Assembly: GCF_001613305.1 (NCBI RefSeq)
Contig: NZ_BDCC01000007.1
Location: 62,001 to 126,000, forward strand
Length of the DNA: 64,000 bases
Reading direction: 5' to 3'
From: Nocardia vaccinii NBRC 15922
GTDB taxonomy: Bacteria; Actinomycetota; Actinomycetes; Mycobacteriales; Mycobacteriaceae
Every line of letters begins with the position of its first letter. Within the stretch, counting starts at the first letter, position 1. Made by a program: the position numbers and the translations under genes. Shown piece by piece: positions 44,753-62,577 of the stretch. The notes below the pieces were generated by a model, which saw only the letters and a list, made by a program, of their open reading frames with translations, ran no database searches and had not been told where the DNA came from.

Positions 44753-44870
44753 GGATACTTCTTCGGTGCTGCCACTGATGAACTCCTTCCAGGCCCAATA
44801 GGACCACGTCAGAGCTCTCCGTGAAAGCGGGGGAACCTCAACCTGAAGGCCTAACGTAGTCATGAAAAGG

Positions 44871-44915
44871 CGTCGGCGGGGCGCCGACGAACCGGCCGCC
44901 TGCAGTGGCGGCCGG
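44871..44915. repeat. Two adjacent perfect hairpins beside the IS3 end
   Basis: CGTCGGCG (44871-44878) pairs with CGCCGACG (44882-44889) around a 3-base loop. Directly after, CCGGCCGCC (44892-44900) pairs with GGCGGCCGG (44907-44915) around a 6-base loop. Tandem GC-rich hairpins suggest a terminator, a structured RNA or a recombination/replication site at the edge of the gene-poor tract. Confidence 0.6.
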
Positions 44916-47520: not shown

Positions 47521-50004
47521 TCAGGGGGTGCGGCGGCGCTGGGACGGCTTGAGCTTGCGAGTGCTTGTCATTCCAGCTGGGCGCGGCTGGCGGAGGGTTG
47601 GCTTGGGCGTCGCAACGGTCTCGTCGATGGGCGGGGTCAGTGGTGCCTCGGCGCGGCTGAGCGTGTCGTCGTTGACGTCGGTGGGCTCGGCTGGTGGCGT
47701 GGCGTTTTGTGGTTCGTCGGGTTCGGGACTGCGATACGCGATCTGGGTGGGGTTGTCGGCGATGAACGTCCGGTCAACCGCGGTGAGCATGTTGGTGCGA
47801 CCCCGAGCGTCGACAGCGAGGATGTGGTCCGCAGTGCGGAAGGCCGGTTGGACGGTGCCCTCGGTGTCGGCGACGAAGACGCGCCTGGTCGCGTTCAGCA
47901 GCGTTGTGTCAGGGTGATCGTCGTAGTGGGAGTGGTGGTGGGCGTCGCCGTCGAGAATGCCAGGGAAGGCGCGGGCGATGTCGGCATCAAAAGCAGCGTC
48001 GAATTCGCCGACGAGTTGGGCGGCGAGGCTGCGGTTGATGGGGTTGGTCGGGTCGGCGTCGGCCAGCCACTCGGCGACCAGACGTCGGCGGTCGGCGTCG
48101 CTGCCGGGATCGGGGACGGTGGCTTTCGCGGTGTCGCGCATCAGCCATGCCGCGTAGCCACTAGGGGCACGGATACCACCGCGGTCGAAGTCCACGGCGG
48201 CTACGGCGTCGGCGAGACTGTCCGCTTGCGCGCCTCGCTCCACCAGGCCCGCAAAGGCCTCTTCCGCGACAGACCATCGCGGGTGGTCGAGCACCCGGTC
48301 GGGGACGCGGCCGCGGAGCAGTTGCGCGAGAGTCGGGGTGGGCTCGGTGTGGAAGAAGTTGTCGGCCCGGAAGCTGTGTGCAGGATGCCAATGTTGGATC
48401 AGCTGGCGGTCGAATTCGTGGCGCGCGGTTGGGGTTGTCGCAGCGTCGCGGTCTTCGCGCCATCGACGTAAGGCGTCGGGGTCGTTGTTGGCGGCCTGGT
48501 AGCGGGCAGCGGCGAGGTCGGCGCTGAAGGTCAGGTCGTGGCCAGTGAGCTGCGCCCAGAGCTTTGCGAGCTGGCGCTGACTGCGGAACTGGTCGCGAGC
48601 GGTGGCGAGCTCGGCGCTCCATTGCCGGAAGTAATCGGGGTCATGGGTACGGAACCACTCGGCGATGTCCTCGCCCGAGGAAGGGGTTTGCGTGGGAGTG
48701 GGAGAGGTCGGCTGGGTGGGGTTGTTGGGGTAGAGCTTGGCGACGGCGTCCGCGATGGCGCGGTCGGCGGCTTCGTCGCTGAGGCCGTGCTCGCGCAGCC
48801 ACTCTCCTGCTTTCTCCCCGCGGGGTGTGCCGCGTATTTCGTCGATGAGCAGTGAGGCTTCGACCCAGGTGAGTCCTGGATCGGGTTGTCGGCCAGCGTC
48901 AGTGAGGATGGCGGCCTGCACTGGAGTCATCGGGGTGCGGCCGGGATCGTTGCTGGCGTTGTCCGCGGGCGGGCTGACGGTGTCGCGCCGTCGCCACCGC
49001 GATAGCAACTCGTCCTCCAACGCGCGCAGCCCGTCGTGGGTGTCAGCCCAGCTGTAGTGGGCCGACCAGAGGTCGTACCACGTCGGATCGGTGGCACGCG
49101 CCCAGGCCCGTGCTTGCTCGAAGCCTGCCGGGCCGGTTGTCGGGGCCGCCTGTTCGTCGGGCGAGGTTCGGTCATCGGCCGAGCCCTGTGGTGGTACGGA
49201 CGAGTCATCTGGGGGCCGATGACGGTCGGCGTCCTCGGCAGCTGTCGAGGACGGGTCCGCTCGGTTAACAGTGCGGCCGTGGCGGCGGATGATCTCGAAT
49301 TCGGCAAGGTGCCGCGCGCCGGGTGTGGGTGCGTCGCTGTGGCGGAGCCACCAACCCCGATACCAGTCGGGGTCGGCAGCCGCCGCGTTGGCGCGGGCGG
49401 CGGCCAGGTCTGCGTTGAACGCCGGATCGCGGCCGGTGGCCTGCCGCCACGCGCGCACCAGGTCCTCGGGCGTGCGCCAGTGGGTGAGCCAGAGCGGATC
49501 GTGGCGTCGACCCCATGCCTGGGCTGAGGCGGCGCGGTCGGCGGATGGGCGGCGGACCCGGGGGTCCAGAGCGTTGCGGAGTTCGTCGAGCCGGTCGACG
49601 GTGGGATCGGCCATCAACCATTCGGCGAGCTGCCTGGCGAGGTGTTGGTCGCCGACGACAGTTTCGACGTGGTTCTCGTCCCATCCTGCCTGTACGCCGT
49701 AGCGGCCGCGCGAGAGTTCGGTGACGCGGACGGTCATGCCGGTGTGGGGATGGGCTGCACCGCGCACTCGGTTGTCGCGGTCGGCGCTGTTCCATTCGCG
49801 GATGGTGGCGGAGTCGAAGGACAGCAGTGCATTTCGCGCGGCGACGGCGCGGAGTCGGGCGGCGTGCTCGGGGTCGGAGAACGCGGCGCGGCCGCGGCGT
49901 TCGCGCACGGTGCGGATCGCGGCGGCCACCGTGCGGATCGCCGCGGCCCCGCGCATCAGGTCGTCGCGAGGCAGGTCGAAAGCGGGGGCGTCGGGATAGG
50001 TCAT
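47521..50004 (-). CDS. Large relaxase-linked protein with internal repeats
   Basis: 827 aa, acidic and Trp-rich, with no membrane segment or nucleotide-binding motif. A unit is repeated: FNADLAAARANAAAADPDWY with TPGARHLAEFEIIRRH near residues 190-245, and FSADLAAARYQAANNDPDAL with TPTARHEFDRQLIQHW in the second half, each preceded by a Trp-x-x-x-T-G-x-D motif. A third, weaker copy (ATDPTWYDLWSAHYS) lies between. ATG 50004 overlaps the relaxase stop (ATGA), so it is made with the relaxase. A helper binding DNA or relaxase is likely; function otherwise unknown. Confidence 0.7.
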   Translation of the reverse strand: MTYPDAPAFDLPRDDLMRGAAAIRTVAAAIRTVRERRGRAAFSDPEHAARLRAVAARNALLSFDSATIREWNSADRDNRVRGAAHPHTGMTVRVTELSRGRYGVQAGWDENHVETVVGDQHLARQLAEWLMADPTVDRLDELRNALDPRVRRPSADRAASAQAWGRRHDPLWLTHWRTPEDLVRAWRQATGRDPAFNADLAAARANAAAADPDWYRGWWLRHSDAPTPGARHLAEFEIIRRHGRTVNRADPSSTAAEDADRHRPPDDSSVPPQGSADDRTSPDEQAAPTTGPAGFEQARAWARATDPTWYDLWSAHYSWADTHDGLRALEDELLSRWRRRDTVSPPADNASNDPGRTPMTPVQAAILTDAGRQPDPGLTWVEASLLIDEIRGTPRGEKAGEWLREHGLSDEAADRAIADAVAKLYPNNPTQPTSPTPTQTPSSGEDIAEWFRTHDPDYFRQWSAELATARDQFRSQRQLAKLWAQLTGHDLTFSADLAAARYQAANNDPDALRRWREDRDAATTPTARHEFDRQLIQHWHPAHSFRADNFFHTEPTPTLAQLLRGRVPDRVLDHPRWSVAEEAFAGLVERGAQADSLADAVAAVDFDRGGIRAPSGYAAWLMRDTAKATVPDPGSDADRRRLVAEWLADADPTNPINRSLAAQLVGEFDAAFDADIARAFPGILDGDAHHHSHYDDHPDTTLLNATRRVFVADTEGTVQPAFRTADHILAVDARGRTNMLTAVDRTFIADNPTQIAYRSPEPDEPQNATPPAEPTDVNDDTLSRAEAPLTPPIDETVATPKPTLRQPRPAGMTSTRKLKPSQRRRTP

Positions 50005-51512
50005 TGTCGGGTGCTCCTGGTGGTCGAAGGATGCGGTGGGGCGGTTGTGGCGCGAAGGGTGGACTCGGTCGGGTGGGGTTGCCGACGGGCGGTGTTCGCT
50101 GCCGGGGCACGGCGTGGCGGTCCGGATGCGGTGCCGGTGAGCGCGGCAGCGATGGCGCGGGCCCTGTCGGCGTGGTGAGGGCGTTCTCGGGTCTGATGCC
50201 AGTGGGCGACCTCGATCGCGAGCGCAGCCAGGGCGGCTGCGAGTTCGAGTACCGGGTCTCGGCGTACGCCGATCAGGGTGCGCAACGCGGCGAGGTCGGC
50301 GGCCACCTGCCGCAGCCGTCGCGCGGCCAACGCGGGGGGCGGCTCCGGGGCCAGGACGATGTGTTCGTAGTCGTGCAGCAGCTCGCGCAGTGTCCTGCCC
50401 GGGGCGACGGCCGTGTAGGCGGCGAGGACGGTGTGCAGCTCGTAGGCGATGTGCTCGGCGGCTGGCGAGTCCGGGTCGGTGTGAAGGCGTGACGCGGCGT
50501 CACGCAGGATGGTGGCAGCCCCGCCGAGGGTTTCGCCTGCTGCGCGGGGTCCGGTCGTGGTGGTGGTGGTCCATCGGCTGATCAGTCGTGGCCACGACAG
50601 GTCGGCGGAGATGTCGCGGCCGACCGACCACCAGATCGGCTCGCCGGTGCGGGCGGACACATCGCCCGCTGCGGCCACTGCCCAACCGGTGATGCGGCCG
50701 CGGGAATCGCGGCGCAACTGAACGAGCACGCCGAGGTCGCGCAGCCGCGCGAGCAGTTCGTCGGGTCCGCTCGCGAGGGCGGCCGACTCGCGGATCACCT
50801 GGCGCAACTGCACTCGTGCCGCCGTTCCCGGCTGGGCGGTGCGCACGCCGGGGCGCCCTTTGGCGGCGCGGCGGGCTGCCTTTTCCTGCTCGCCACGCGT
50901 GGCTTGCGGGGTGGAGCCCGAGCGGCGGGGCGCGGCGGTGGCTCGCAGACCGAGCTTGGTCTCCCAGCGCCGCACGACCGCGCGAACGCGGGCGTAGTCG
51001 TTCTGTGGATAGAAGCGGCGGCCGGTGTCCTGGCGTACCAGCACGGCCGCGATGTGGATGTGGTCCGACCCTGCCCGGTTCGTGCCGTGGTGCACGGCGA
51101 TCCAGCGACAACCGCCGGCGTCTTCTGCCGGGGCGATGCCGGTGGCAGCCATTATTTCGGCGGCGAGGGCAGCCCAGGTGTCGAAGTCGAGAACACCGTC
51201 AACGGGGTCGAGGGTGACCGAGGCGTGCCACACGTAGCCGTGTTTGGTGTAGTCCAGTTCGCCGGGTAGCGGCTGAACGTAAGGTAGGCCGGCCGCGTCG
51301 GCGGCCGCGTTGACGTGGGCGCCGAGTTTGCGGACTTCGCCTGGGGCGTAGTCGAAGTCACCCGGACCGATGCGGGTCGGTTGCAGTGCTTGGGGGTCGT
51401 TTTGCCATGCCGCGATCACGGTCGGTCGGGTGTGTTCGTTGTGGCGGCCGGGCCCCACCAAGTAGCTGACCAGCTTGGGTGCGTTCCAGCCCTTGCGGAT
51501 TTTGCCGATCAC
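50001..51512 (-). CDS. Relaxase (MobA/VirD2-like mobilisation nuclease)
   Basis: 503 aa. The N-terminal relaxase domain starts VIGKIRKGWNAPKLVSYLVG; YVWHASVTLDP (H96) and the three-histidine metal motif in RWIAVHHGTNRAGSDHIHIA (H142, H151, H153) are typical of Relaxase (PF03432) proteins. The catalytic Tyr is probably in the first 60 residues (Y17 or Y55). The C-terminal half is helical. It nicks oriT and is carried through the T4SS via the coupling protein. GTG 51512 overlaps the MobC-like stop. Confidence 0.88.
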   Translation of the reverse strand: MIGKIRKGWNAPKLVSYLVGPGRHNEHTRPTVIAAWQNDPQALQPTRIGPGDFDYAPGEVRKLGAHVNAAADAAGLPYVQPLPGELDYTKHGYVWHASVTLDPVDGVLDFDTWAALAAEIMAATGIAPAEDAGGCRWIAVHHGTNRAGSDHIHIAAVLVRQDTGRRFYPQNDYARVRAVVRRWETKLGLRATAAPRRSGSTPQATRGEQEKAARRAAKGRPGVRTAQPGTAARVQLRQVIRESAALASGPDELLARLRDLGVLVQLRRDSRGRITGWAVAAAGDVSARTGEPIWWSVGRDISADLSWPRLISRWTTTTTTGPRAAGETLGGAATILRDAASRLHTDPDSPAAEHIAYELHTVLAAYTAVAPGRTLRELLHDYEHIVLAPEPPPALAARRLRQVAADLAALRTLIGVRRDPVLELAAALAALAIEVAHWHQTRERPHHADRARAIAAALTGTASGPPRRAPAANTARRQPHPTESTLRATTAPPHPSTTRSTRQ

Positions 51513-51919
51513 GGCCGGTCCTCCCGCAGCCGCGTCATCAGCCAGTCGTCGATGCGCGTGACGACACGGCGGGTGAACGACAGGGCGGCGGTGATGTCGC
51601 CGACGGGTTCGCCGGTGGCGTTGGCACGGGCGGCGATCTGGTTGAGGTTTCCACCGGCCAGGCCGAGCAAGCGCCGTAGTTCGCGGACCTCGGCGCGCAG
51701 GCCGAGTACCTCGGCGCCGGTGCGCGGCGCGGTCGGAGGTCGTGGCAGTACGCGAGCTTTCGCCGCGGCGACCGCGGCGGACGCGGCGAAGGCCCCGGGT
51801 TCGAGACCGGCGGCAGCCGAGGCTTGTTCGACAAGGGCGAGTTCGTCGGGGGTGTAACGGACCCGGCGGTGAATGTCGCGCTTCGCCGCGGCATGGGACC
51901 GCCGGGCTCTGCCATCCAC
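51509..51919 (-). CDS. MobC-like relaxosome accessory protein
   Basis: 136 aa. A basic N-terminus and ribbon-helix-helix pattern (VRYTPDELALVEQASAAAG) are followed by the MobC motif LRRLLGLAGGNLNQIAARAN and a helical C-terminus. Such proteins bind oriT and help the relaxase melt it. GTG 51919 with GGAAGG upstream is preferred; the frame runs further up but into the inverted-repeat region. Confidence 0.8.
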   Translation of the reverse strand: MDGRARRSHAAAKRDIHRRVRYTPDELALVEQASAAAGLEPGAFAASAAVAAAKARVLPRPPTAPRTGAEVLGLRAEVRELRRLLGLAGGNLNQIAARANATGEPVGDITAALSFTRRVVTRIDDWLMTRLREDRP

Positions 51920-51937
51920 GCGACCACCGACCTTCCT

Positions 51938-52053
51938 GTTGTTCCAGTTGCTTGTGCTTCTGAGCAAACAACTGGAACAACTAGACACACTCGAATCACT
52001 TCCGAGTGTGTCCGCGCCCGTCGCCGGGCGCAACGAAAAGGCCCCCCTTTTCG
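51938..52053. other. Candidate oriT: three successive inverted repeats
   Basis: Just upstream of mobC lie three perfect inverted repeats: GTTGTTCCAGTTG (51938-51950) with CAACTGGAACAAC (51969-51981); GACACACTCG (51984-51993) with CGAGTGTGTC (52003-52012); and CGAAAAGG (52034-52041) with CCTTTTCG (52046-52053). This density and the position before mobC-relaxase are typical of mobilisation oriT regions. The nic site is not identifiable by eye. Confidence 0.6.
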
Positions 52054-52303
52054 GATATCTTGCTCACCTCTATGGCGTAAGTTCACGGTGGCTGAAGCGA
52101 TTTCAGTGGGAACCCGAGGCGCTTCACGCTGTCGTGCGCGAAACAGCATCGGGTTCCAGTGAATCGGCACCGCAACGAAGGCTCAGGACGAGCGGAGGCC
52201 GCGCAGCTGCTCTCGCATCTGTCGATATGTGTCGGTGTGGCTGCTCATACTGGGGGTGCTTAGCCGCGTGGTGTGCGCGGCTTCTGAGTCGTTATGGGGA
52301 GTT

Positions 52304-53278
52304 GTGGCGAAGGACGATGTGGTGGCTTTGCCCAGTGCTGTGGATCGTCAGGCGTGGCTTGTGATGTCGAAGGCGGCGTATCGCCGGTTGGGGGGCGGTG
52401 AGAAGTACGATGACGATCCTTCCCGCCGCTACAGTTGGGACAGTACGGTTCCGAATCATCGCAATGTCCGTCCGGGCGACATCGTGGTGTTGTGGGACGA
52501 AGTCGAGTCATTGGGCGCATCGGTCGTCGAGCGGATCACGACCGGACATGCTGTGAAGCGCCGCGGTCGCTGTACGAACCCGGCTTGTCGAACGACGAAT
52601 TATGAACCGCGGAAGACGATCAGGCCCATTTACCGCTGCTACGACTGTGGCGCCGAGTTCGATGACCCTGTCTTCGAGGACGTTGATGTCGAGACCTATC
52701 GTTCCGACCACGGTCAAGCCTGGGTGGATCTAGCCGGGGATTTCAGCGCCAAGGAACTGCGGGCGTTCTGCGAGAAACCGAAGTCACAGAACAGCTTCCG
52801 GGCACTAAACTGGGATGCCTTCCGAGCCGCGGCGAAGGGAACGACGGGGGCGGACATGTTTGGTCCGCTCGATGCGGTGACGAAGCAGATCCAAGGAGGT
52901 CACACCACTCGACCAACTCGGGTGCGGCTCGGGCAGAAGGAATTCCGCAAGAGTCTGCTGGCCAGGTACAAGACGCGGTGCGCGTTCACCGGGGACCTTC
53001 CCGAGACGGTGTTGGACGCCTGCCACCTCTACAGCTACGCGAAGGTCGGCAAGCATCATGAGCACGGCGGGATCCTGCTACGCCGGGACCTGCATACCCT
53101 GTTCGACCGCGGAGAGATCGCGGTCGACACCAATGACCTGATCGATGTGTCCGACCACTACCGCGGGTTCGCGACTTACGGTGAGTTGCACGGCAAACCA
53201 CTGACCATCACGGTCACCCCGGAACAGCGGACGTGGTTCGAGCTGCACTGGACTACACATCGCAAAGGGGACAGCTAG
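52304..53278 (+). CDS. HNH endonuclease with N-terminal PUA/EVE-like and zinc-ribbon module
   Basis: 324 aa. The first part (RRYSWDSTVPNHRNVRPGDIVVLW) looks like a PUA/EVE-type beta-barrel. A zinc ribbon follows (CTNPAC ... YRCYDCGAEF), then an HNH_2-type nuclease: CAFTGDLPETVLDACHLYSY, HGGILLRRDLHTLFDRG. EVE-like domains recognise modified bases, so a modification-dependent restriction function is the best guess. GTG 52304 (VAKDDVVALP) has GGGGAG upstream and is preferred to 52229. The N-terminal module is homologous to that of the nuclease at 59774. Divergent from mobC across the candidate oriT. Confidence 0.78.
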   Translation: MAKDDVVALPSAVDRQAWLVMSKAAYRRLGGGEKYDDDPSRRYSWDSTVPNHRNVRPGDIVVLWDEVESLGASVVERITTGHAVKRRGRCTNPACRTTNYEPRKTIRPIYRCYDCGAEFDDPVFEDVDVETYRSDHGQAWVDLAGDFSAKELRAFCEKPKSQNSFRALNWDAFRAAAKGTTGADMFGPLDAVTKQIQGGHTTRPTRVRLGQKEFRKSLLARYKTRCAFTGDLPETVLDACHLYSYAKVGKHHEHGGILLRRDLHTLFDRGEIAVDTNDLIDVSDHYRGFATYGELHGKPLTITVTPEQRTWFELHWTTHRKGDS

Positions 53279-53279
53279 C

Positions 53280-53585
53280 GTGAGCTCGTCGCAACCGGTG
53301 CCAGTCGGCGATCCCCGCGGCCTGACCCCGCTTCAGCGGCGAGTCCTCGATTGCCTCGAAAGCGACAACGTCATGATGCCGGTATGGGAGATCGCGCAGG
53401 AGGTTTTCGGCCGTGAGGATGCCCCGTTGGCTTCGGAGAAGAAGTCGGTCTACGGGTGCTTGAAACGACTTGAGAAGCGTGGACTGATCCGCGGTCGGCC
53501 GTCGTGGCTTCGAGATATCGGGCCGGCGACTGTGTGGCGCTCGTTGATAGATCCGAGCCACAGGGTGCTCGACCCAGGCGGGTAG
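53280..53585 (+). CDS. Small winged-helix protein downstream of the HNH nuclease
   Basis: 101 aa. LTPLQRRVLDCLESDNVMMP then VWEIAQEVFG and KKSVYGCLKRLEKRGLI form a winged helix. GTG 53280 follows the HNH stop by one base, so they are co-transcribed and probably act together, perhaps as its regulator. Confidence 0.65.
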   Translation: MSSSQPVPVGDPRGLTPLQRRVLDCLESDNVMMPVWEIAQEVFGREDAPLASEKKSVYGCLKRLEKRGLIRGRPSWLRDIGPATVWRSLIDPSHRVLDPGG

Positions 53586-53709
53586 TTCGCGGGCTGTCGA
53601 TCTATAGATGAGCTCATTCGGCCGCACATGAAGGACGCCGCGCGGGGGGCCTCGTGTGTGCGGCCTGCGACCTTTCGAACTTCTGTCCGCTCGGCCTGCC
53701 GCATTCCTG

Positions 53710-55944
53710 TCACAGCAGGCCAACGATTCTCAAAGCCGCATCGAGTCCAGGGTCCTCAGCGATATGGCCATGTTCAAGGCTCTTTAAAGTGGCGATGCCC
53801 CGCTTAACCCGGTCGACGTGAAACGTTGACCAGGCGCGGCAGATCGGGCAGTCAAGCCCAATGAGAAACGGCCTCAACAGATGGAGTCGACCCTCGTGGC
53901 CGCGCAAGTAGAGGCTGTCTACCTCCAACTCGTTGTCTCGCTCGGTAGCGGTTCTGGTAGGGACTATCGGATGGTCACCCATGAGCTCGCGGTATTCGAT
54001 CCGCGATGACGACGTCAGCGAATCCCGGCGCACCGACGTCACCTGCAGCAGCGGCCAATCCGTCAGGAAACGCGCGGACGAGAGCAGAAGGGTCAAGTCT
54101 CCCATGGCCTCTGAGACAGCGCTCGGAAGGTCGATCGGGTCAATTCGACGCAGGTGTGCCTGGTCATTACGTCGCGCGGTGAGACGTTGTCGGGCGGCTT
54201 CCGCTCGATCATCAGCGAGCAAAGACTTGAGATCCGCAATTGGATGCGTCAGCGGTACTGAGCGAAGCCGCTTACTCGTGGATGCCTCTCTCAGTACTGC
54301 TGCCCATTCCCCCAGCCCGGGCCCACCACGACCGGCGGCAAGTTTGGAGCGGATCTCCTTCGCCGAGCCGAGCTCCACCCCCAGGTCGCGTGCTAGGGCC
54401 ATTATGAGCAGTGCGCAGTAACACAGCAGGATCTCCGCAGCGTCAAGTAACGAGCCATACGCTTCTGCGGACGGGCCTGAACTGTTGAGTGCTTCTGCCA
54501 CGCGCCATCGCAGTGCAATCGGGTACGGGAAGCGAGTCCTTACCGTATACGCCAGATCGTCCAGCAGCGAAGCTGTTTCAGCCCTGAGTCGCAGTATTCG
54601 CCCTGATTCGATTGCCAATGTGCGGGCTGCCCGAGGCGAGTCGCCAAGGAAAACCGACTCGAGAAGTTGGTCCGCGTCCGCCAACCAGCGCTCGAACCGA
54701 GCCTTCGCGCTGTCGATACCCGTCAGAGCGTCGGCGAGGTCTTGGTCTGGTACGGGGACAGGCAATTCCGCCATTGCCTGCGCTGACACTCTGTACAGCG
54801 CCATCCGGCCTGTGACGAGCGCCAACGCCAGCGGTGTTCGCAAGTACCGGAGTACGAAATCGCGTTCACTCTCGAGACTTTCGACCCGCGGGCGAAGAAC
54901 GAGTAGCCCGTCGTCGGCCAAGGCGGGAGTGTCGGCTGGGGTCACCGGAGCGAAGACGAGTCCGCCTGACTCGCCGCGTCTGTACATCGCTCGAACTATC
55001 AAGTCACCGGGCATCAGGTGCTGTTCCGACGGAGCTCGAGCAAAACGCGACTTATCAGAAATTGCACCGATCGTTCCCGCTCGAGTTACGTCGCGGCCGG
55101 CGAGGATTCTGACTGCCTCTGGTTCCTCTGGCGATGCGAGCAGTCCCCTTCGGAGGGCACCAAGAAGGTAGATGCCGCTTCGAATCTCGAAGAAGTGTCC
55201 CAGCTTCAGAACCTCGCCGAACTCCGATAACTCCTCTCGACGGGCCGCCAGCGCCGGATGATCGCGGTCGAAATGAACCCCTGCCTTCCCATCCGGTTTG
55301 GCACGCAGCACGTACCCATACTCGCTTCGGCCGCCACTCTGCTTCAGCAGGCGTTCAAAGTCCGACCGCACCCTATTGGGTGGGATTTCTTTGGGGATCC
55401 TGAACATCTTGATCGGAATCGCTCCGGTCGCCTTCGCGCGCAGAACGACCGCAGTGAGCTCGAACGTGCGATGGACTTCGGGCAGAAGAGGCTGGACCTC
55501 GACCACCGCTGCGATGTCCCAGTGCAGGGCAATGCCTACCCGCATGGATATTACCGGCGTCACGCGGCTCGACAACACGTGCGCCGGAAGAAGAACCACC
55601 AGTATGGATTCCGACGATACAGGTGCGATCTCCGGTAGCAGCTGTTCGAACGGAGCACGGCCAGAGGATTTTGAATGTGCAGGCCCTTGAGAACCAGCTG
55701 ATCGCTGTATCCATGACGGAACAAGCACCACGGCAGTATGGACGCCCAGCTGTGACGACACCTCTTCGCCAACACCACTGCTCTCCACGACGGTGGCGGT
55801 AGCTATCCAGTCCGGCGGGAAGACGTCAGCCATGTCTTGGTCGACAACTACGGCCGGTTGAGTGGCGCTTCCGGCGCCGACCGCAATCCGGATCAGCTGT
55901 GTGAGCAACCCAAAAGGCGTGTCGTCGTCATTCTCTGCGGTCAT
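53710..55944 (-). CDS. Methylase-like/specificity-domain/HEPN fusion protein
   Basis: 744 aa. Residues 1-240 resemble the Rossmann half of N6-adenine methylases of type I/BREX type but lack a clear SAM loop and NPPY, so are probably inactive. Residues about 248-430 resemble a type I S-subunit target-recognition domain: LGHFFEIRSG, LMPGDLIVRAM, VLRPRVESLESERDFVLRYLRTPLAL, AMAELPVPVPDQDLADAL. A helical C-terminal region contains RNDQAH (about 592-597), an Rx4H signature of HEPN ribonucleases, and near the end a CPIC pair. A DNA-recognising sensor coupled to an RNase is the attractive reading. It stands alone on the minus strand. ATG 55944 is the clear start. Confidence 0.65.
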   Translation of the reverse strand: MTAENDDDTPFGLLTQLIRIAVGAGSATQPAVVVDQDMADVFPPDWIATATVVESSGVGEEVSSQLGVHTAVVLVPSWIQRSAGSQGPAHSKSSGRAPFEQLLPEIAPVSSESILVVLLPAHVLSSRVTPVISMRVGIALHWDIAAVVEVQPLLPEVHRTFELTAVVLRAKATGAIPIKMFRIPKEIPPNRVRSDFERLLKQSGGRSEYGYVLRAKPDGKAGVHFDRDHPALAARREELSEFGEVLKLGHFFEIRSGIYLLGALRRGLLASPEEPEAVRILAGRDVTRAGTIGAISDKSRFARAPSEQHLMPGDLIVRAMYRRGESGGLVFAPVTPADTPALADDGLLVLRPRVESLESERDFVLRYLRTPLALALVTGRMALYRVSAQAMAELPVPVPDQDLADALTGIDSAKARFERWLADADQLLESVFLGDSPRAARTLAIESGRILRLRAETASLLDDLAYTVRTRFPYPIALRWRVAEALNSSGPSAEAYGSLLDAAEILLCYCALLIMALARDLGVELGSAKEIRSKLAAGRGGPGLGEWAAVLREASTSKRLRSVPLTHPIADLKSLLADDRAEAARQRLTARRNDQAHLRRIDPIDLPSAVSEAMGDLTLLLSSARFLTDWPLLQVTSVRRDSLTSSSRIEYRELMGDHPIVPTRTATERDNELEVDSLYLRGHEGRLHLLRPFLIGLDCPICRAWSTFHVDRVKRGIATLKSLEHGHIAEDPGLDAALRIVGLL

Positions 55945-56429
55945 GACAGGTCCCCTTCCCGCCCCTCTCTATCAGCAATCTGTGATCTAACCAGTCGTTC
56001 GATACCGTCGCTGACGAACGGCACCGACCTGTCGAAGGTAGAACGTTCTGTAGTGGGCCCTGCTCGCGCTGACCGACGCGGACAACGCCGGGTAGTTGAA
56101 GATCAACCGGCCGTACCGATCTGAGGCCGGCGACCGTCTGCTCGTGCCGGATAGCGCGCTGACCAGAACGGTCGAATCTGCTTGCCTTCGAGACGGCTGC
56201 ACCCCACCCGGACAACCGGATGGGGTGCAGCGGAGTGTCTACGAGCAGTGATGCGCGCGCCGCCTACTTATTCGCAGAGGCTAATCCGCTACGGAACTCG
56301 ACCATCTTGACGTCGATCACGGGACCTGGCGGCGAACGACTGAGCGACGATCACTGAGAAGTCAGCAGAGAGTTAAAAGTCTTGCTGCGCAGTAGATCCC
56401 ATGGCCATTGCTCCAGCGTCAGCGGTCAT
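55945..56429. other. Intergenic region with one strong hairpin
   Basis: About 490 bases between the 744-aa gene and the phage remnants. No gene is supported. It should contain the promoter of the 744-aa gene (near 55950-56030) and holds an 11-bp hairpin at 56196-56231. Confidence 0.5.
56196..56231. terminator. Perfect 11-bp hairpin
   Basis: GCTGCACCCCA (56196-56206) pairs with TGGGGTGCAGC (56221-56231), loop of 14 bases containing CCGG twice. No T-run. Terminator-like; the gene it ended may have been phage and is now lost. Confidence 0.6.
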
Positions 56430-56870
56430 CTAATTCCCCCAGGTGAGGGCGTTTTCCGTCATGAAGTCACCAGCGTCACGATCGACGGCGCGCAGATCAC
56501 AGCATCGCCTATGTCCTCGAGGGCAATCGCCTCTATACCCGCCTGGGCCGTTGGCCTGCACAGGATTTGCGCGTCCCGGCGGGTCGCCGGGCACATGGTC
56601 GGTGGAATACCTGCAAGGCGTGCCGCCCCCGGCGGGCGCGGATCAGAGGGTGGGGTTGCTGGCGCGGGAGTCTGGAACGCCTGCACCGGCGAAGGGAAAA
56701 TGCCGCCTACCAAAGCGCGTGGAATCGGTGCCCCGGCAGGGGTTTCGATGAGGCTGTCCAACCCGGCCGCGCTGTTCGACAAGCAGCAGACCGGGATACC
56801 GGAGATCGACATGTGGGTGGCTGGAGTGAACCCGCACCACCGGTCCGCGCCGTCTGCGGTGTCCTCACCG
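56430..56870 (+). pseudogene. Phage head-tail adaptor fragment
   Basis: Read across frames: FRHEVTSVTIDGAQI, YVLEGNRLYTRLGRWPAQDL, GTWSVEYLQGVPPPAGADQ, GKCRLPKRVESV, then SMRLSNPAALFDKQQTGIPE and IDMWVAGVNPH. This is the order of motifs in actinophage head-to-tail connector proteins ('GTWxVxYLxGxPPP', 'CRLPxRVxSVxR', 'TGLxEVDLWLAAVNP'). At least three frame changes separate them. Confidence 0.65.
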
Positions 56871-56891
56871 GACTATCGGTCTGCATTCTGA

Positions 56892-57410
56892 TGGACAAGG
56901 CAGCGACCGTGATCGGGTTGACCGTGACCCAGGTGCGGCAATTCTTCTCCCCGGACCAGCACGTGCCGCCACTGGGCGGTGGCACCGACGCCGTGAACAT
57001 CGTGGCCGGGGAGATCATCACCCTGTCACCATGGGTCGGGGTCAGCGACGATGACACCGCGTGCGACGGCGCGGCCCGTATGTGTGGGTTCGGCTCGTGC
57101 GTCGCTGGCGCACAGAGGAATTCCCCACCGAAGCCGTCGCGGGCAACTGCCGCCTGCAGGAGGCGATCACCGTGGAGGCCGGCATCGCGCGCTGCCATCC
57201 CGTGGACCCATGCCCGGCCGAACTTGAGGAAATTGCGATGGTGCAGCTGGACGACTCATGGCGAATCGATCGGGCGTTGTGCGCGGCGATGCGAGACGCG
57301 GAATCCAAAGGCGTCGCCGCGGTTACGGGGCTGGGTGGGGTGAGCCGTTCGACCCTGAAGGGCTGGTTATCGCGTGGGGCAGGCCGCGCACGCGCAACTG
57401 TAGGAGGACG
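56892..57410 (+). pseudogene. Phage connector-like protein, frameshifted
   Basis: PLGGGTDAVNIVAGEIITLS and VGVSDDDTACDG, then in another frame YVWVRLVRRWRTEEFPTEAV, AITVEAGIARCHPVDPCPAE and QLDDSWRIDRALCAAM, then EPFDPEGLVIAWG in a third. The middle is the recognisable core of actinophage head-tail connector proteins (WVRVVRRYRTxxFP, EVGVARC, LDDAWRLDKALCCA). Confidence 0.6.
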
Positions 57411-57411
57411 T

Positions 57412-57606
57412 ATGGCCAAGGTGACCATCGAGGGCGCAATCAACTCGGACGTGTGCAAGCGGGGCGAACAACACACGGTCGAATGGACTTCCCGTCTGAA
57501 CGGGCTGGTGCGGTCGCGGATCGTCAAGGTGATCGAATGGCACACCGACACACCGAAACCCAAACGCGGCAGACGGTCCCGGCACGCTGGCGCGCAGCGA
57601 CGCTGA
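57412..57606 (+). CDS. Small phage structural protein, 64 aa
   Basis: ATG 57412 with TAGGAGGAC upstream. MAKVTIEGAINSDVCKRGEQ followed by HTVEWTSRLNGLVRSRIVKV is of the type found between connector and gp10-like genes in actinophages. The only intact gene of the remnant; likely no longer functional in isolation. Confidence 0.5.
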   Translation: MAKVTIEGAINSDVCKRGEQHTVEWTSRLNGLVRSRIVKVIEWHTDTPKPKRGRRSRHAGAQRR

Positions 57607-58030
57607 AGATTCGAGCCAGCACTGAGTGGAGCCCGCCGCCGCGATCGGGTGAGCTGGCGGCGCAGCGGGCGGCGCCGACGGTGCGGCGGCTGGGCCGGTC
57701 GATCACCACGACGGCCAATCGGCGAGTGAATGTGCGGTCCGGGCACCTGCGGTCCACGATCGGTGACCGGACCACGGTGGCGGGCGCGCAGGTGGTGACG
57801 GAGGTGTACGCGACGCGGTTCGTGCACGATCCGGCTCGGCCGCATGAGATCCGGACTCGCCGGGCGCGGATGCTGCGGTTCACGGTCGGCGGCCGGTGGT
57901 GTTCGCACGCCGGGTGTGGCATCCCGGCTACAAGGACAATCCGTTCCTGGCCTCGGTGGTCCGCGACGAACTTGCGCGCGCAAATCTATGACGAAACGTT
58001 TGCCACCGCTGGGCAACTTGTGGAAATTCT
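57600..58030 (+). pseudogene. HK97 gp10-like phage protein, frameshifted
   Basis: TVRRLGRSITTTANRRVNVR, SGHLRSTIGDRTTVAGAQVV and FVHDPARPHEIRTRRARMLR, followed in another frame by VFARRVWHPGYKDNPFLAS and VVRDELA. Conserved features of gp10-like minor head-tail proteins (V-x-T-GxLRxSI, HPG...PFL). One shift near 57895. Confidence 0.65.
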
Positions 58031-58164
58031 GGCGTTAATCCGCTGTTGAATCGCGGTTTCCAACTTGCCAAATAGCAGGCATATTTTCCCGCCGAGAATG
58101 ATAGCTTGATATCATGCTGGCATCCGATCATGCGAGCATTCGTGATCGGAGCGCAGAAACGCGA

Positions 58165-58195
58165 AGGGTGGCCGCTGCTGCAACAGGGCCACCCT
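58165..58195 (-). terminator. Perfect 9-bp hairpin after the 45-aa peptide gene
   Basis: AGGGTGGCC (58165-58173) pairs with GGCCACCCT (58187-58195), 13-base loop. It begins six bases past the stop of the minus-strand peptide gene, a natural terminator position. Confidence 0.55.
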
Positions 58196-58200
58196 CCAGG

Positions 58201-58338
58201 TCAAAGCAGGCTATGCAGCACTATCGCTAGCACGGCCCATCTGACCAGCATTTCTGTGTACTGCGCGGGGATCTCGGCGGTCACACTCAGTACCGCCGAG
58301 GTTCTCCGCTTGGCTCGTCGCCTCCTTCGCTTCGACAT
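58201..58338 (-). CDS. 45-aa Arg-rich peptide with C-terminal hydrophobic helix
   Basis: ATG 58338 is preceded by GGAGGTGATGTCAG, an excellent ribosome site. The peptide starts MSKRRRRRAKRRTSAV and ends in MLVRWAVLAIVLHSLL. A hairpin follows its stop, and a perfect inverted repeat precedes it, so all parts of a small transcription unit are present. A longer overlapping frame (MSDVEAKEA) starts six bases upstream and competes for the same site. The composition recalls small membrane-active or toxin-like peptides; no family recognised. Confidence 0.45.
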   Translation of the reverse strand: MSKRRRRRAKRRTSAVLSVTAEIPAQYTEMLVRWAVLAIVLHSLL

Positions 58339-58366
58339 CTGACATCACCTCCTCTCCGAGGACACA

Positions 58367-58398
58367 GTTATCCACAGCGCGAAACTGCTGTGGATAAC
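58367..58398. promoter_or_regulatory. Inverted pair of DnaA-box sequences
   Basis: GTTATCCACAG (58367-58377) and CTGTGGATAAC (58388-58398) form a perfect inverted repeat with 10-base spacing. Each arm contains TTATCCACA, the consensus DnaA box. It lies about 30 bases upstream of the 45-aa peptide gene and could be an operator, a DnaA titration site, or an origin element. Confidence 0.55.
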
Positions 58399-58586
58399 CC
58401 CTTTGAGAATGCGCCGGAAGGCATTCGGTATCCGGCTGTAAGAACGATAGTCGAAACCGGGCCTGTGATGTAGAGCGCAGCAGCATAATTCGGGTCACGA
58501 CCAGTTACCGCACGTCGTTTGCTCAGCAAACCGCCGGTGTGTGGCGGCGTCCAGAGCTCTGCACCCCACTTTGACAGCGTGCGCGC

Positions 58587-58880
58587 GTGACTGCGCCCGG
58601 CGGAATCCGTATCCCGATCACTGCTGACGGCCGCCGGGTTCGATGCCGAGCTGACCCGCGTCGTCATTGCGGCCATACGGAACGTCCAAATCCGTTTGGA
58701 CGCACAGCCGTTGACCATCGGCATCGATGTCGATCTGGACGCGGACGCGGCCACCACGCATATGCGCACGCTGCGGGAACAGCTCGAACGCGAAGCGAAA
58801 CCTATCACTTAGAAGATCGACGTGCGGGTGAATCTCGACCGGGCAGGCACCCCGGAAGAGTTGCGGGCGCTGCGGGAAGA
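58587..58880 (+). pseudogene. Phage tape-measure N-terminal fragment
   Basis: GTG 58587 reads GGIRIPITADGRR, then after a one-base shift FDAELTRVVIAAIRNVQIRL, TIGIDVDLDADAATTHM and LREQLEREAKPIT, stopping at 58812. A second piece, KIDVRVNLDRAGTPEELRAL, follows. The repeated short amphipathic stretches are typical of the start of actinophage tape-measure proteins; the long remainder is missing. Confidence 0.55.
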
Positions 58881-58904
58881 GTCGCAGTGAGAGGCCTGCC
58901 CGAT

Positions 58905-59452
58905 CGTGCAACAGGTGCGGGTCCAGACCGACCGCACCGGCATATCGGTGCCGAAGTTCGACACCAGCTCGTCGGCCAGCGTGCAGCAGCTCGGCCGCAA
59001 CGCGGACACCGCTGGTGCCGCAGAATGCGACGCTGACACCCGACGCGCCGGTGAAGCTCGACATGTTGGTGCCGGGGATCAACATCACGGCCAACTGCGC
59101 CGGGCAAGTCCGGCTCAATGCGGGCGACAACGTGAGCTTGGTCGCGGTTGCGACTGGTGTACCCGCAATGTCGGTGCTGCAACGGTTTTCACCACACCTG
59201 TCGCGACGTTGATGTTCCTTTCCTTCATCGTAAGGACCTGAGATGGCACCGTGGGTATGCACGGATCGGAACCTTCGAATCACCTCCGGCACACTGGGGT
59301 TGGAGAAGTGGTCCACGCCCCGGATGGTGTCGCAGGTGTCGGCGGCGTCGACCGCTGACGGGGCGATTACCGGGGCAGGGTTCACCACGACACCGGGGAA
59401 GCTGCTGGTCGATGCCTCGATGTCGTGGACATCGGATCCCCGTTGCCGTTGA
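58905..59452 (+). pseudogene. Phage tail-protein fragments
   Basis: Fragments VRVQTDRTGISVPKFDTSSS, TPDAPVKLDMLVPGINITAN with CAGQVRLNAGDNVSLVAVA, and RITSGTLGLEKWSTPRMVSQ lie in different frames. They have the Thr/Val/Gly-rich character of minor tail proteins. None is complete; assignment rests on context after the tape-measure fragment. Confidence 0.4.
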
Positions 59453-59773
59453 TGATGCGGTAGCAGGTGATCCGGTCGTATCGCACGATCATCTGCTCGA
59501 ACCCGAACGCCATCCAGATCTGGAACTCGTGGACCACCGGTATCGACCAGGCCGCCCGCACCCCTGCCACCGCCAGTCCGCGACAGCTGAACGGTAGTGA
59601 GGCACATACTGCCACCGCTCTTCTCACCGCTGCCGCCCGGATCTTTGCTGGACGAACGCCGAAACCGTACCTGCCTATCGCGTGAGCGGATCGTTGTCGG
59701 TGGTGTTCCGTAGGGTTGGCGCAGCGGTCGAAACTGCCTTGGCTGCAACGAGTTCACCGGATGGAGGGTGTCG

Positions 59774-61642
59774 ATGCCTGCATGGGCTTGTAAGTCGGTG
59801 GGTGAGGATCGGGACTGGCACAGCAACGATGGTTACGACGATATTCCGGGCGTGCAGTACGTCTACACCAACACCGTCGGCAACTGCCGGCGTGTGGAGG
59901 TGGGGGACACGGTGGTGGTGCACGATCGCGAGCGTGCGCATGGTGTTTCCGTCATAGACGCCATCAACGTCCAGGACGATGTGCCGGTGCAGATCAAGCG
60001 GTGCCGCTCCTGCAACAGAGCTGCTGTGGAGAGGCGCAAGCGTCGCAGGCCTGAGTATCGGTGCAGCAAATGCAAAGACGAGTTCGATTCCCCGGTGATC
60101 AGCGATGAGACGAGGACGGTTTTCACTGCGCATATCGCCCAGCACTGGCAACCGATCCGCGGGGCATTGACTGCCGAGTCGTTACTGTCGACGAGAGTTA
60201 ACGGTGACCGTCAGAGCTCGATCCGGGCCTTGGATGCTGATCAGCTTGACGAGCTGCTTCGGCGGATCGAGGTCGGGAGGTCTGTTTTCCCGGACGGTGG
60301 AGAAGCCAGCCAGCCGGATAAGACATCTGAGCTACAGGCTGTAAATCTGAATCTGGTGACGCGTGATGCGGTGCTGTCGGCGATCGGGGAGTTCGACCGA
60401 CTCGGCAGGGACGAATTCCTGGCCGGCCATGGTTTTGGTGAGGCGCGCGCCTTCTATATCGACTTCGAGGGCCAGCGATACGACTCGAAAGCGATCGTCG
60501 GCGTTGCCTACGGTTATCTACCAGGCCGAGAGGTGCTGCGGCCCAGTCGTTTCAGCGGCGGCGAAGCGACAGTCGCGCGCCTGCTGCGGCGGTTGGGGTT
60601 TCGACTCGTACCTGCTGCGGGCGGCTCACCTGCAGCAGGCGAGGTCACCTCCGTTCCAGCGTATTGGTGGACGAGCGATTCCAGCGAGAACTGTTGGGTC
60701 GAAATCCGCCAGCTTGATGGGCTGGGGACATCCCTACTCTGCCCAGATCATCGCCAGAACGGTCGACGCGACCCGTGGTACGACCTGGTCCGGGAAGTGC
60801 GTGAAGGCGACATCGTCTATCACTACAGTGCGCCCGAGCGGCGGTTCGTAGGTCGGTCGGTCGCGGCCGACGACGCGGTGCACGACACTACCGAGCGCAC
60901 CTATTCGGTTCAGCTGGTCGACTTCACTCCGTTCACCGAGGAGGTGAGCCTGGCGAGCCTACGCAGCAAAGCCGACGCCATCTACGGCGAGCGCGAACGA
61001 CTGGAACAAATGTATCCCGGACAGCGACTTCATCTTCCGTTCCAGTTCAAACAGGACCGGTCGCAGCTGGCGCTGATGTCGAACTACTTCGCCAAGCTCC
61101 CGCAATCAATCATCAAAGTGCTGTTCGAGACTGAACCCGCCGCTTCGACCATCTCGGGTGACGACTCGGGAACGTTGCTGCCGCCTGTCCGTACCGGCTA
61201 CCTCAAACCATTCGAACCGAAGGCTGACACCGCGTACGTCTCCAACATCGCACCGAGGTCGGCCACCCGCACCCGCAGTCACGAGACGCTGGTGAACTCC
61301 TTCGCTCGGTGGCTGACCGGTCGCGGGCGGGATCCCTTGCGTAACGCAGCGATCGATCTCGGCACACACACTCCGCCGACGATTATCGAAGCCAAACATG
61401 TCGACAACGACCGATGGGCCGATGCTGTCCGCGCCGCGGTCGGTCAGCTGTACGAATACCGCTACTTCCAGATCGTCGATCCAGCATCCGGACTCATTTT
61501 TCTCGCGGACATGCCCGTTCCCGCGCTCTGGTGTGACTATCTTCAGGAGGACCGCGATATCGGCGTGGCGTGGCCTGAGCTCGACGGTCAGGGATTCCAC
61601 CTCAGCCCTTTGGCGCAGCGGCTACTTGGATTCACAGACTGA
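59774..61642 (+). CDS. Putative modification-dependent restriction enzyme (zinc ribbon, ScoMcrA-head-like, EVE-like, PD-(D/E)xK)
   Basis: 622 aa, four parts. Residues 1-110: a PUA/EVE-like barrel with a zinc ribbon (Cys 77, 80, 97, 100 in RCRSCN ... YRCSKCKDEF), shared with the HNH protein at 52304. Residues about 185-260: VLSAIGEFDRLGRDEFLAGH with YDSKAIVGVAYGYLPG, like the N-terminal head of ScoMcrA. Residues about 290-440: EVE-like (AYWWTSDSSENCWVEI, VREGDIVYHYSA). C-terminus: PD-(D/E)xK nuclease with D528, E539 and K541 (AIDLGTHTPPTIIEAKHV). It probably cuts DNA carrying foreign base modification. ATG 59774 has GGAGGG upstream; a GTG two codons earlier is possible. Confidence 0.78.
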   Translation: MPAWACKSVGEDRDWHSNDGYDDIPGVQYVYTNTVGNCRRVEVGDTVVVHDRERAHGVSVIDAINVQDDVPVQIKRCRSCNRAAVERRKRRRPEYRCSKCKDEFDSPVISDETRTVFTAHIAQHWQPIRGALTAESLLSTRVNGDRQSSIRALDADQLDELLRRIEVGRSVFPDGGEASQPDKTSELQAVNLNLVTRDAVLSAIGEFDRLGRDEFLAGHGFGEARAFYIDFEGQRYDSKAIVGVAYGYLPGREVLRPSRFSGGEATVARLLRRLGFRLVPAAGGSPAAGEVTSVPAYWWTSDSSENCWVEIRQLDGLGTSLLCPDHRQNGRRDPWYDLVREVREGDIVYHYSAPERRFVGRSVAADDAVHDTTERTYSVQLVDFTPFTEEVSLASLRSKADAIYGERERLEQMYPGQRLHLPFQFKQDRSQLALMSNYFAKLPQSIIKVLFETEPAASTISGDDSGTLLPPVRTGYLKPFEPKADTAYVSNIAPRSATRTRSHETLVNSFARWLTGRGRDPLRNAAIDLGTHTPPTIIEAKHVDNDRWADAVRAAVGQLYEYRYFQIVDPASGLIFLADMPVPALWCDYLQEDRDIGVAWPELDGQGFHLSPLAQRLLGFTD

Positions 61643-61669
61643 CTTCTGCAGGCTGAGCCGGCGCTCTGG

Positions 61670-61731
61670 AGCTAGCGGAGGCCCAGATCAAATCGGGAAG
61701 ATCGTGTCACCGGTGGCCAGTTCCGCTAGCT
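61670..61731. repeat. Perfect 10-bp inverted repeat with 42-base spacer
   Basis: AGCTAGCGGA (61670-61679) and TCCGCTAGCT (61722-61731), just after the restriction-like gene. Could end its transcript or serve as a protein-binding or recombination site. Confidence 0.45.
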
Positions 61732-61874
61732 TGAGGCCGCTCGTTGTTTGGCATCATTAGAATAAGCAGTGCGCGTGGCGCTTCCCTGCGGTACCTCGGG
61801 ACGTATCGCTGATCCGGCGTACACCCGTCGGGTGATTGATAGGGGAGGAACTCATTGGCGAAAGGGACGTGGCG

Positions 61875-62273
61875 ATGGCGCGAAAAGAAGATCCGGCGTC
61901 TGCCGGACTTGAGGCGTATCAGAAGGTGATGATCGGCTCGCGGATCGAGCAGGCCGTGCGGGAGTTGGCGGTGCGTATCGGCGAGCATCAGAAGTGCGTG
62001 CGCACTCGCGAGGAGGAGACCGAGCGGCTGCTCGCCGAAGAGCGCGCAGCAGAGGAAGCGGCTTATGCGGCTTATGAAGCCGCGAAAGAGGCCGGCGCGA
62101 AGGTCGGCGACCTCGACCGCGCCGGGCTTAAACCGAAACCGACGACGACCAGCCGGCCGCGCCGGGCCCGCCCTGACACTCCGCCGGAGGCCGCTGCCAG
62201 AGTCCCACTCACACCTCCTACCGCAGGCCCAGATGAGACGGCTGGCAGCTCTGCGGCGTGCGATGTCCTGTAG
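61875..62273 (+). CDS. Small coiled-coil protein, 132 aa
   Basis: ATG 61875 (MARKEDPASAGLEAYQKVM) with AAAGGGA upstream; TTG 61836 and GTG 61869 are in frame. A central Glu/Ala helix (REEETERLLAEERAAEEAAY) predicts a coiled coil, and the tail is Pro/Thr/Arg-rich. No family recognised. Located between the restriction-like gene and the GHKL ATPase on the same strand. Confidence 0.55.
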   Translation: MARKEDPASAGLEAYQKVMIGSRIEQAVRELAVRIGEHQKCVRTREEETERLLAEERAAEEAAYAAYEAAKEAGAKVGDLDRAGLKPKPTTTSRPRRARPDTPPEAAARVPLTPPTAGPDETAGSSAACDVL

Positions 62274-62577
62274 CAGGTGGGTCCGAGGCGCCCGCCAACT
62301 TTGACGTGCGGAGAGGCCTAAGCCTCTCGAATGTCGGTGCTGCCGCATAGGTTTGACCGCCTTGGATGAAACAAGTCCTCGAGATGTGACGATTGAGATC
62401 TGGTACCGCTGACGCGCGGATCAATCCAGGTCTCGCGGGGTTGGCGGTGATTAACAGGAAGTCTGTGCGGGAGAAGAGTATTCGGCACTCGCTCTGCTTC
62501 GGCCAGAGCGTTGCGTGCATGGTGTAGGAGGACAGCCGCGTGTTCGGATTCGACGTCTGCCAGTTCGAGGATGCCCA
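62274..62577. other. Intergenic region before the GHKL ATPase
   Basis: About 300 bases. No gene is supported. It probably carries the promoter of the ATPase gene; no repeat or operator stands out. Confidence 0.45.

Follow-up and report, generated by a model that had tools for sequence, protein, structure and literature searches.

A gene on the reverse strand of a 64,000-nucleotide stretch of Nocardia vaccinii DNA (the window) encodes a single 744-residue chain that joins a predicted methylase fold lacking its catalytic motifs to a target-recognition domain (TRD) and a HEPN-like domain with an invariant RNxxxH motif. We put the chance that this protein is a DNA-triggered HEPN RNase of abortive defence at somewhat better than even (roughly 0.55). 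The open reading frame (window positions 53710–55944, minus strand) is exact and intact, with an ATG start, and its product matches no family in Pfam, PADLOC or NCBIfam at E values up to 1. An earlier note on this DNA had described a methylase-like part, an S-subunit-like part and a helical carboxy terminus in one chain; alignments and an AlphaFold model of the whole protein computed with 40 aligned family members (mean pLDDT 89, pTM 0.67; alignment A2 holds 40 rows of the family) confirm this three-part architecture, and the interpretation given with it is partly supported. No description of a methylase/TRD/HEPN chain was found in the open-licence PMC literature, a coverage outside which preprints fall. 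The family would be a new form of coupling between HEPN domains and restriction–modification (R-M) components.

Table 1. Features of the gene and its protein product (window coordinates).
Feature	Position	Strand	Basis
Whole gene, 744 aa: pseudo-methylase, TRD, spacer helix, HEPN-like domain, beta-rich tail	53710..55944	-	ORF, model, 40-row alignment
Residues 1-235, N6-adenine methylase fold without motif I or (N/D/S)PP(Y/F)	55240..55944	-	VIA, motif check
Residues 236-400, single HsdS-type TRD	54745..55239	-	hhalign, VIA, family TRD profile
Residues 401-432, long spacer helix behind TRD	54649..54744	-	Helix 401-430 in model
Residues 433-628, HEPN-like helical domain	54061..54648	-	C-terminal model, topology compared with PMC3710099
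RNDQAH, R592-H597, predicted HEPN active site	54154..54171	-	R, N, H in 43/43 aligned C-termini
Residues 629-744, beta-rich tail with H658, C699, C702, H727	53713..54060	-	Alignment, weak Zn_ribbon_LapB match

The amino-terminal part is most similar in predicted structure to N6-adenine methylases. VIA aligned model residues 9–399 with M.TaqI (2np6) at Z 18.9 (rmsd 4.7, 334 residues aligned) and the same model with HsdM proteins at Z 10–12, and the 50 Foldseek matches listed for the model are N6-adenine methylases or enzymes containing one (E 5.9e-11 to 2.6e-7). A motif check of the window protein found no match to methylase motif I or motif IV, and residues 75–78 read VPSW where longer relatives carry NPPF or HPPF. 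Across 20 proteins of group A (dead methylase, TRD, HEPN and tail; about 720–820 residues), this xPxx site opens at residue 75 with V, L, A, I, M, F or C and never with N, D or S (20 of 20); its second position is always P, and its fourth is W in 16. A complete, active methylase is rejected for the window protein on this motif evidence, and the earlier description of a methylase-like part with no catalytic motif is borne out by the alignment and by the fold match to 2np6. Judging from sequence and model, this part looks catalytically dead. Sequence profiles of group A are weak: hhalign of the group-A profile against the longer-methylase relatives gave a probability of 1.2 (E 0.046), and a PDB profile search with the group-A alignment A3 found no HsdM, so that the HsdM matches obtained with alignment A2 were probably driven by the longer proteins of group B. 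The methylase assignment thus rests on predicted structure and on alignment to the longer relatives.

The segment that follows has the fold of an HsdS-type TRD. Its alignment with four neighbouring HsdS proteins gave an hhalign probability of 94.5, and VIA matched residues ~236 to 439 to S subunits or related proteins (7vru, Z 14.3; 1yf2, Z 11.5; 3okg, Z 10.3), which agrees with the S-subunit-like recognition region proposed before. The family TRD profile also matches an HsdS in locus L068 (E 2e-13). Model and alignments reveal one TRD region, compared with the two TRDs of type I HsdS. A search for TRD swapping, which covered 15 close pairs within a single six-member Streptomyces clade, found no sharp drop in TRD identity.

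A model of residues 429–744 alone (pLDDT 92, pTM 0.90) shows helices up to residue 629 and then the beta-rich tail. The helical carboxy terminus reported earlier does carry RNDQAH at residues 592–597, but the helical part ends near residue 628 and a separate domain follows it. Only eight columns are invariant among 43 aligned C-termini, namely R592, N593, H597, G656, H658, P692, C699 and C702, and the expectation that R592 and H597 would be conserved among homologues is thus borne out in 43 of 43. An Rx4H pattern taken alone carries little weight because it is expected by chance (one seen in the window protein, against a shuffle mean of 1.66); what counts is the invariance of RNxxxH, for which the shuffle mean is 0.0135. 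In the numbering of the C-terminal model, R164 lies in helix 151–168 with H169 just behind it, which places RNxxxH where the third core helix ends. Helix 65–92 holds the acidic residue E504, present in 42 of 43 rows and gapped in the other, and an insert of three helices (100–109, 116–128 and 140–148) separates that helix from the motif helix. This arrangement of motif helix, acidic residue and insert matches the HEPN RNase layout given in passages of PMC3710099, which also report that catalysis by RNase L, PrrC and RloC depends on R, N and H.

Direct comparisons with known HEPN proteins gave less. The best HEPN model in Pfam, HEPN_RiboL-PSP, matched one of the 43 members (E 0.08); Foldseek searches of the C-terminal model against the PDB and against viral models returned no match at E 0.001; and a PDB profile search with a five-row C-terminal alignment (A1) returned nothing, with a best E of 0.089. 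The top VIA match of the C-terminal model is 2jpu (Z 8.3, rmsd 3.8, 129 of 129 residues), a score within the range that unrelated helical bundles can reach, followed by two designed helical proteins (Z 7.2–7.4); VIA itself cautions that a Z of this size can reflect no more than a shared arrangement. We take 2jpu to be a PaREP1-type HEPN protein like 2q00, and apart from 2jpu no HEPN RNase appears by name among the 50 matches listed. The assignment of 2q00 itself to the PaREP1-type HEPN proteins is given in PMC3710099. Motif, topology and one middling fold match thus favour the HEPN fold suggested at the outset, but no significant HEPN profile or Foldseek match does; we regard the helical domain as very probably HEPN.

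The tail carries H658, C699 and C702 in all 43 C-termini and H727 in 42, with one gap, and these residues form a possible zinc site. Zn_ribbon_LapB matches the tail weakly in 10 of the 43 (best E 0.026), and VIA gave middling scores (Z about 5) against small barrels from eIF5A and from ribosomal proteins.

The family takes three architectures. In addition to group A, group B has a longer methylase part followed by TRD, HEPN and tail (about 930–1120 residues), and group C consists of TRD, HEPN and tail without a methylase part (L067, L068, L071, L086 and plasmid loci L093, L094 and L096); L035, L066 and L088 were not confidently placed. Matches to N6_Mtase reach E 3e-36 in L016 and 2e-43 in L017, with HsdM_N above the cut-off in the former and below it in the latter. 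Among 11 group-B rows that include the motif region, four (L017, L074, L090 and L091) keep DPxCGTG and NPP(F/Y), and the rest have HPPF, DPPF, NPPL, CGMG, CGTA or CGGA; from these sequences, the methylase motifs are apparently eroding in most group-B proteins. In a quick tree of 50 C-termini, group B takes one change (support 76), group C one change inside group A (support 45) and group A two, with branches so long that gains and losses have no firm order. The best HsdM model is PDLC03029 for L090 and PDLC03021 for L016 and L017, a difference that makes a second fusion possible.

Conservation is lowest in the methylase part and highest in HEPN and tail. Across 190 group-A pairs, identity averages 32% in residues 1–235, 39% in the TRD, 53% in HEPN and 57% in the tail; across 66 group-B pairs the averages are 45% in the N terminus, 50% in the TRD and 57% in both HEPN and tail. 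For six Streptomyces pairs, dN/dS is 0.27–0.64 in the N terminus, 0.19–0.37 in the TRD, 0.04–0.14 in HEPN and 0–0.21 in the tail, values below 1 in every domain and hence a mark of purifying selection in these sampled relatives. Together, the identity and dN/dS figures indicate that the dead methylase is retained loosely and the HEPN part is held tightly.

The same C-terminal module, recognized by profile, ends long proteins in another class of the phylum (L117:5936-9907, L120:244-4230 and L121:3453-7328). L117 is a ResIII helicase by Pfam, beside or downstream of two N6_N4_Mtase frames, with L120 and L121 similar to it by eye; the module also ends L118:8631-10409 and L119:9044-10483, there behind what look by eye like membrane segments. 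The motif arginine is replaced by lysine in L117, L119, L120 and L122 (KNDYKH or KNDFKH), all of which stand outside the 43-row alignment, and L118 keeps RNDYHH. Apparently the module moves between proteins of restriction type.

Members are sparse and nearly all actinobacterial. At E values up to 0.001, and with N. vaccinii included, matches were found in 7 of 150 genomes sampled for the genus (five of them family members on inspection), 6 of 301 for the family, 9 of 394 for the class and 12 of 396 for the phylum, tallies that include weak matches in G271, not recovered on re-search, and G455 (E 6e-4), neither counted as a family member. Frames in G055 and G081, by eye ATP-grasp-like and HsdS-like, were likewise not counted. 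A contig scan with the window protein alone as query found no relative, and an alignment-based scan yielded 36 loci, some on the same contigs as the genome-search matches. Nine plasmid records match (eight Streptomyces and one [Kitasatospora]), one of them over 10% of the query, and no relatives were found among phages or among viral contigs searched with one pattern. In all, 50 loci with a member were listed, which reduce to 48 since L085 repeats L069 and L020/L021 were taken as one gene; L073, a partial match, is not among the 48. Two of the 48 come from metagenome-assembled genomes labelled Bacillota and Hydrogenedentota, and may be transfers or binning errors.

Three of the loci belong to N. 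vaccinii, whose genome holds two further copies, one with a broken frame (contig C60) and one spread over contigs C35 and C24 that seems to be split by the contig ends. Copies broken by frame shifts or gaps occur at L015:9746-12648 (N. vaccinii), L072:4244-7296, L087:6097-11493 and L089:9080-10243, and may reflect toxicity, turnover or draft-assembly errors. The protein beside the broken N. vaccinii copy, at L015:7999-8946, is possibly a CBASS-type cyclase: it matches a nucleotidyltransferase family weakly (PF01909, E 0.0031, below cut-off).

Defence-type genes lie near 16 of the 48 loci, a raw count from a scanned subset of neighbours and without a background control, and they include Druantia/DISARM-like, type I R-M, Wadjet, Zac and STAND genes. 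DruE-like, DpdE/DrmD-like and DrmMI-like genes line up with the family gene at L032, L033 and L057, as a DrmMI-like gene does at L070, where the contig ends; family scans identified the DruE-like gene on L057 and the other two on L033. The resulting four-gene set of DruE-like and DpdE/DrmD-like helicases, DrmMI-like methylase and family member (L033:1421-10666, L057:8696-20952, L032 and L070) is possibly a defence system of its own. Type I R-M genes are found near L017, L050, L068, L071 and L080 (one protein per cluster scanned), Wadjet JetC two genes upstream at L065, and ZacB and ZacC preceding the family gene at L088. STAND/NACHT/NB-ARC proteins are close by in L016, L054, L060, L061 and L081 (L054 and L060 by their cluster with L061). 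The earlier remark that the protein has no methylase or HsdR partner thus applies at the window locus, but not to the four relatives in line with DruE/DpdE/DrmMI-like genes or the five near type I R-M genes.

On the 431-kb contig that holds the window (C7), neither N6_Mtase (PF02384) nor HSDR_N (PF04313) has a match. HSDR_N matches occur elsewhere in N. vaccinii, on contigs C38, C96 and C88 with HsdM there, and an HsdR partner may act in trans. The window gene is flanked by an HNH_2 nuclease (E 2e-9) and by a protein with a partial mREase_IV match (E 6.8e-13, residues 197–281). The neighbours had been called two modification-sensing nucleases; one has a clear nuclease match, and the other has the partial type IV match. 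Both are on the opposite strand and therefore do not form one operon with the window gene, which is not in an operon with any known defence gene at this locus.

The two flanking proteins (52229–53278 and 59768–61642, both plus strand) have related N termini, with 34% identity over residues 4–160 (E 5.7e-17), and the shared region looks EVE-like by eye, with a zinc ribbon. The HNH gene is followed immediately by a 101-residue frame (53280–53585, plus strand) with weak winged-helix matches (LexA_DNA_bind, E 0.011). The roughly 3.8 kb that separates the family gene from the nuclease-like gene at 59768 (55945–59767) holds no convincing long gene or Rfam match; Rfam gave nothing in 44400–64000, and the window contains no tRNAs. 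On the other side, a relaxase (PF03432, E 1.2e-7) at 50001–51980, a large protein beside it and a by-eye transposase-like frame at 42983–44440 fall within a region (42983–52033) that looks mobile, and G+C jumps to 0.71 at 48–52 kb.

In the mechanism that we propose, the dead methylase domain and single TRD would hold a short DNA sequence and sense whether that DNA is foreign, unmethylated or chemically changed. The signal would pass through the spacer helix to the C-terminal HEPN RNase, which would then cut cellular or phage RNA and stop the infected cell. We infer the DNA binding, the RNase activity, their coupling, the trigger and the role in phage defence. The earlier note had proposed that unmodified or altered phage DNA is detected and translation then arrested, which is likewise conjectural. 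A DNA-triggered RNase is favoured because RNxxxH is invariant within a HEPN-like layout and the same chain has methylase and TRD folds, because HEPN and tail vary least among relatives and the methylase part most, and because dN/dS is below 1, TRD–HEPN proteins exist without a methylase and some relatives have defence neighbours. Counted against it are the lack of a significant HEPN profile or Foldseek match, the VIA score of 8.3, the lysine for arginine in distant relatives and the position of the window gene outside any operon with a known defence gene.

A bolder reading, to which we give a little less than even odds, is that the family is a restriction-like system that cuts RNA, not DNA. 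The pseudo-methylase and TRD would read foreign or wrongly modified DNA and fire the HEPN RNase of the same chain, with neither DNA cleavage nor methylation; across the family the methylase would erode, and in one branch be lost, as reader and RNase stay. If true, the protein would be a simple DNA-to-RNA sensor, possibly a one-gene abortive defence, in which a methylase has turned into a sensor. Recognition of a DNA sequence and cutting of RNA would then share a single chain of 744 residues, which would permit a direct test of which DNA switches on which RNA cleavage.

The same parts could be wired differently. As a guard resembling PrrC, the HEPN RNase would be silenced by docking of its HsdM/HsdS-like part on a resident R-M complex or the methylated sites of that complex, and freed when a phage inhibits the complex, the trigger then being loss of the host system and not foreign DNA. 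PrrC is a known precedent (PMC3710099), type I genes occur near 5 of the 48 loci, and N. vaccinii has HsdM with HsdR matches on the three other contigs named above; yet neighbourhood clustering recognized no type I genes at 43 of the 48 loci, and no conserved partner gene is common to most of them, which leaves this account unlikely.

We think it less likely still that the protein is a regulator or accessory subunit of restriction complexes and that its HEPN-like domain binds RNA or acts as a scaffold without catalytic activity. The missing profile and Foldseek matches to HEPN RNases and the resemblance of the tail to ribosomal-protein barrels and eIF5A would fit such a role, and non-catalytic HEPN domains are reported, but these typically lack the motif (PMC3710099), whereas here the residues on which RNase L, PrrC and RloC are reported to depend for catalysis are invariant in 43 of 43. 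Least probable of all is a selfish mobile-element toxin with no phage trigger: its DNA-reading part would tie the RNase to the element that encodes it, and loss of that element would set the RNase free (addiction). The nine plasmid records and the nearby relaxase and transposase-like genes point that way; most sampled loci, however, are on chromosomal-size or unassigned contigs, and no antitoxin gene recurs beside the family gene.

To our knowledge, the HEPN RNases that serve as back-up weapons of restriction are separate proteins or are fused to cutting or ATPase machinery. PrrC, which accompanies the EcoprrI type Ic R-M system, and RloC likewise couple a HEPN RNase to type I R-M recognition, as passages of PMC3710099 describe, but their chains include an ABC ATPase and are distinct from HsdM/HsdS, whereas the window protein is one chain with no ATPase family (no Pfam match at E up to 1). 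With type I HsdM/HsdS and the M.TaqI-type N6-adenine methylases it shares the methylase fold and HsdS-type TRD; unlike them, it lacks motifs I and IV, has one TRD and no HsdR on its contig, and has gained a HEPN-like domain. The DUF499-HEPN systems related to BREX also place HEPN in a restriction-like defence, according to PMC12839542, but there HEPN is fused to an ATPase and here to a methylase/TRD part. BrxX/PglX has an N6 methylase, a TRD and a C-terminal region (VIA Z 10.6 to PglX 8c45), yet the window protein matches no PADLOC model, PglX included, at E up to 1, and the consulted sections of PMC12839542 describe no HEPN in BrxX. Finally, the helicase-nucleases at L117, L120 and L121 end in the same C-terminal module by profile, but with the module fused to a ResIII helicase (Pfam, L117) and with lysine in place of the motif arginine in L117 and L120.
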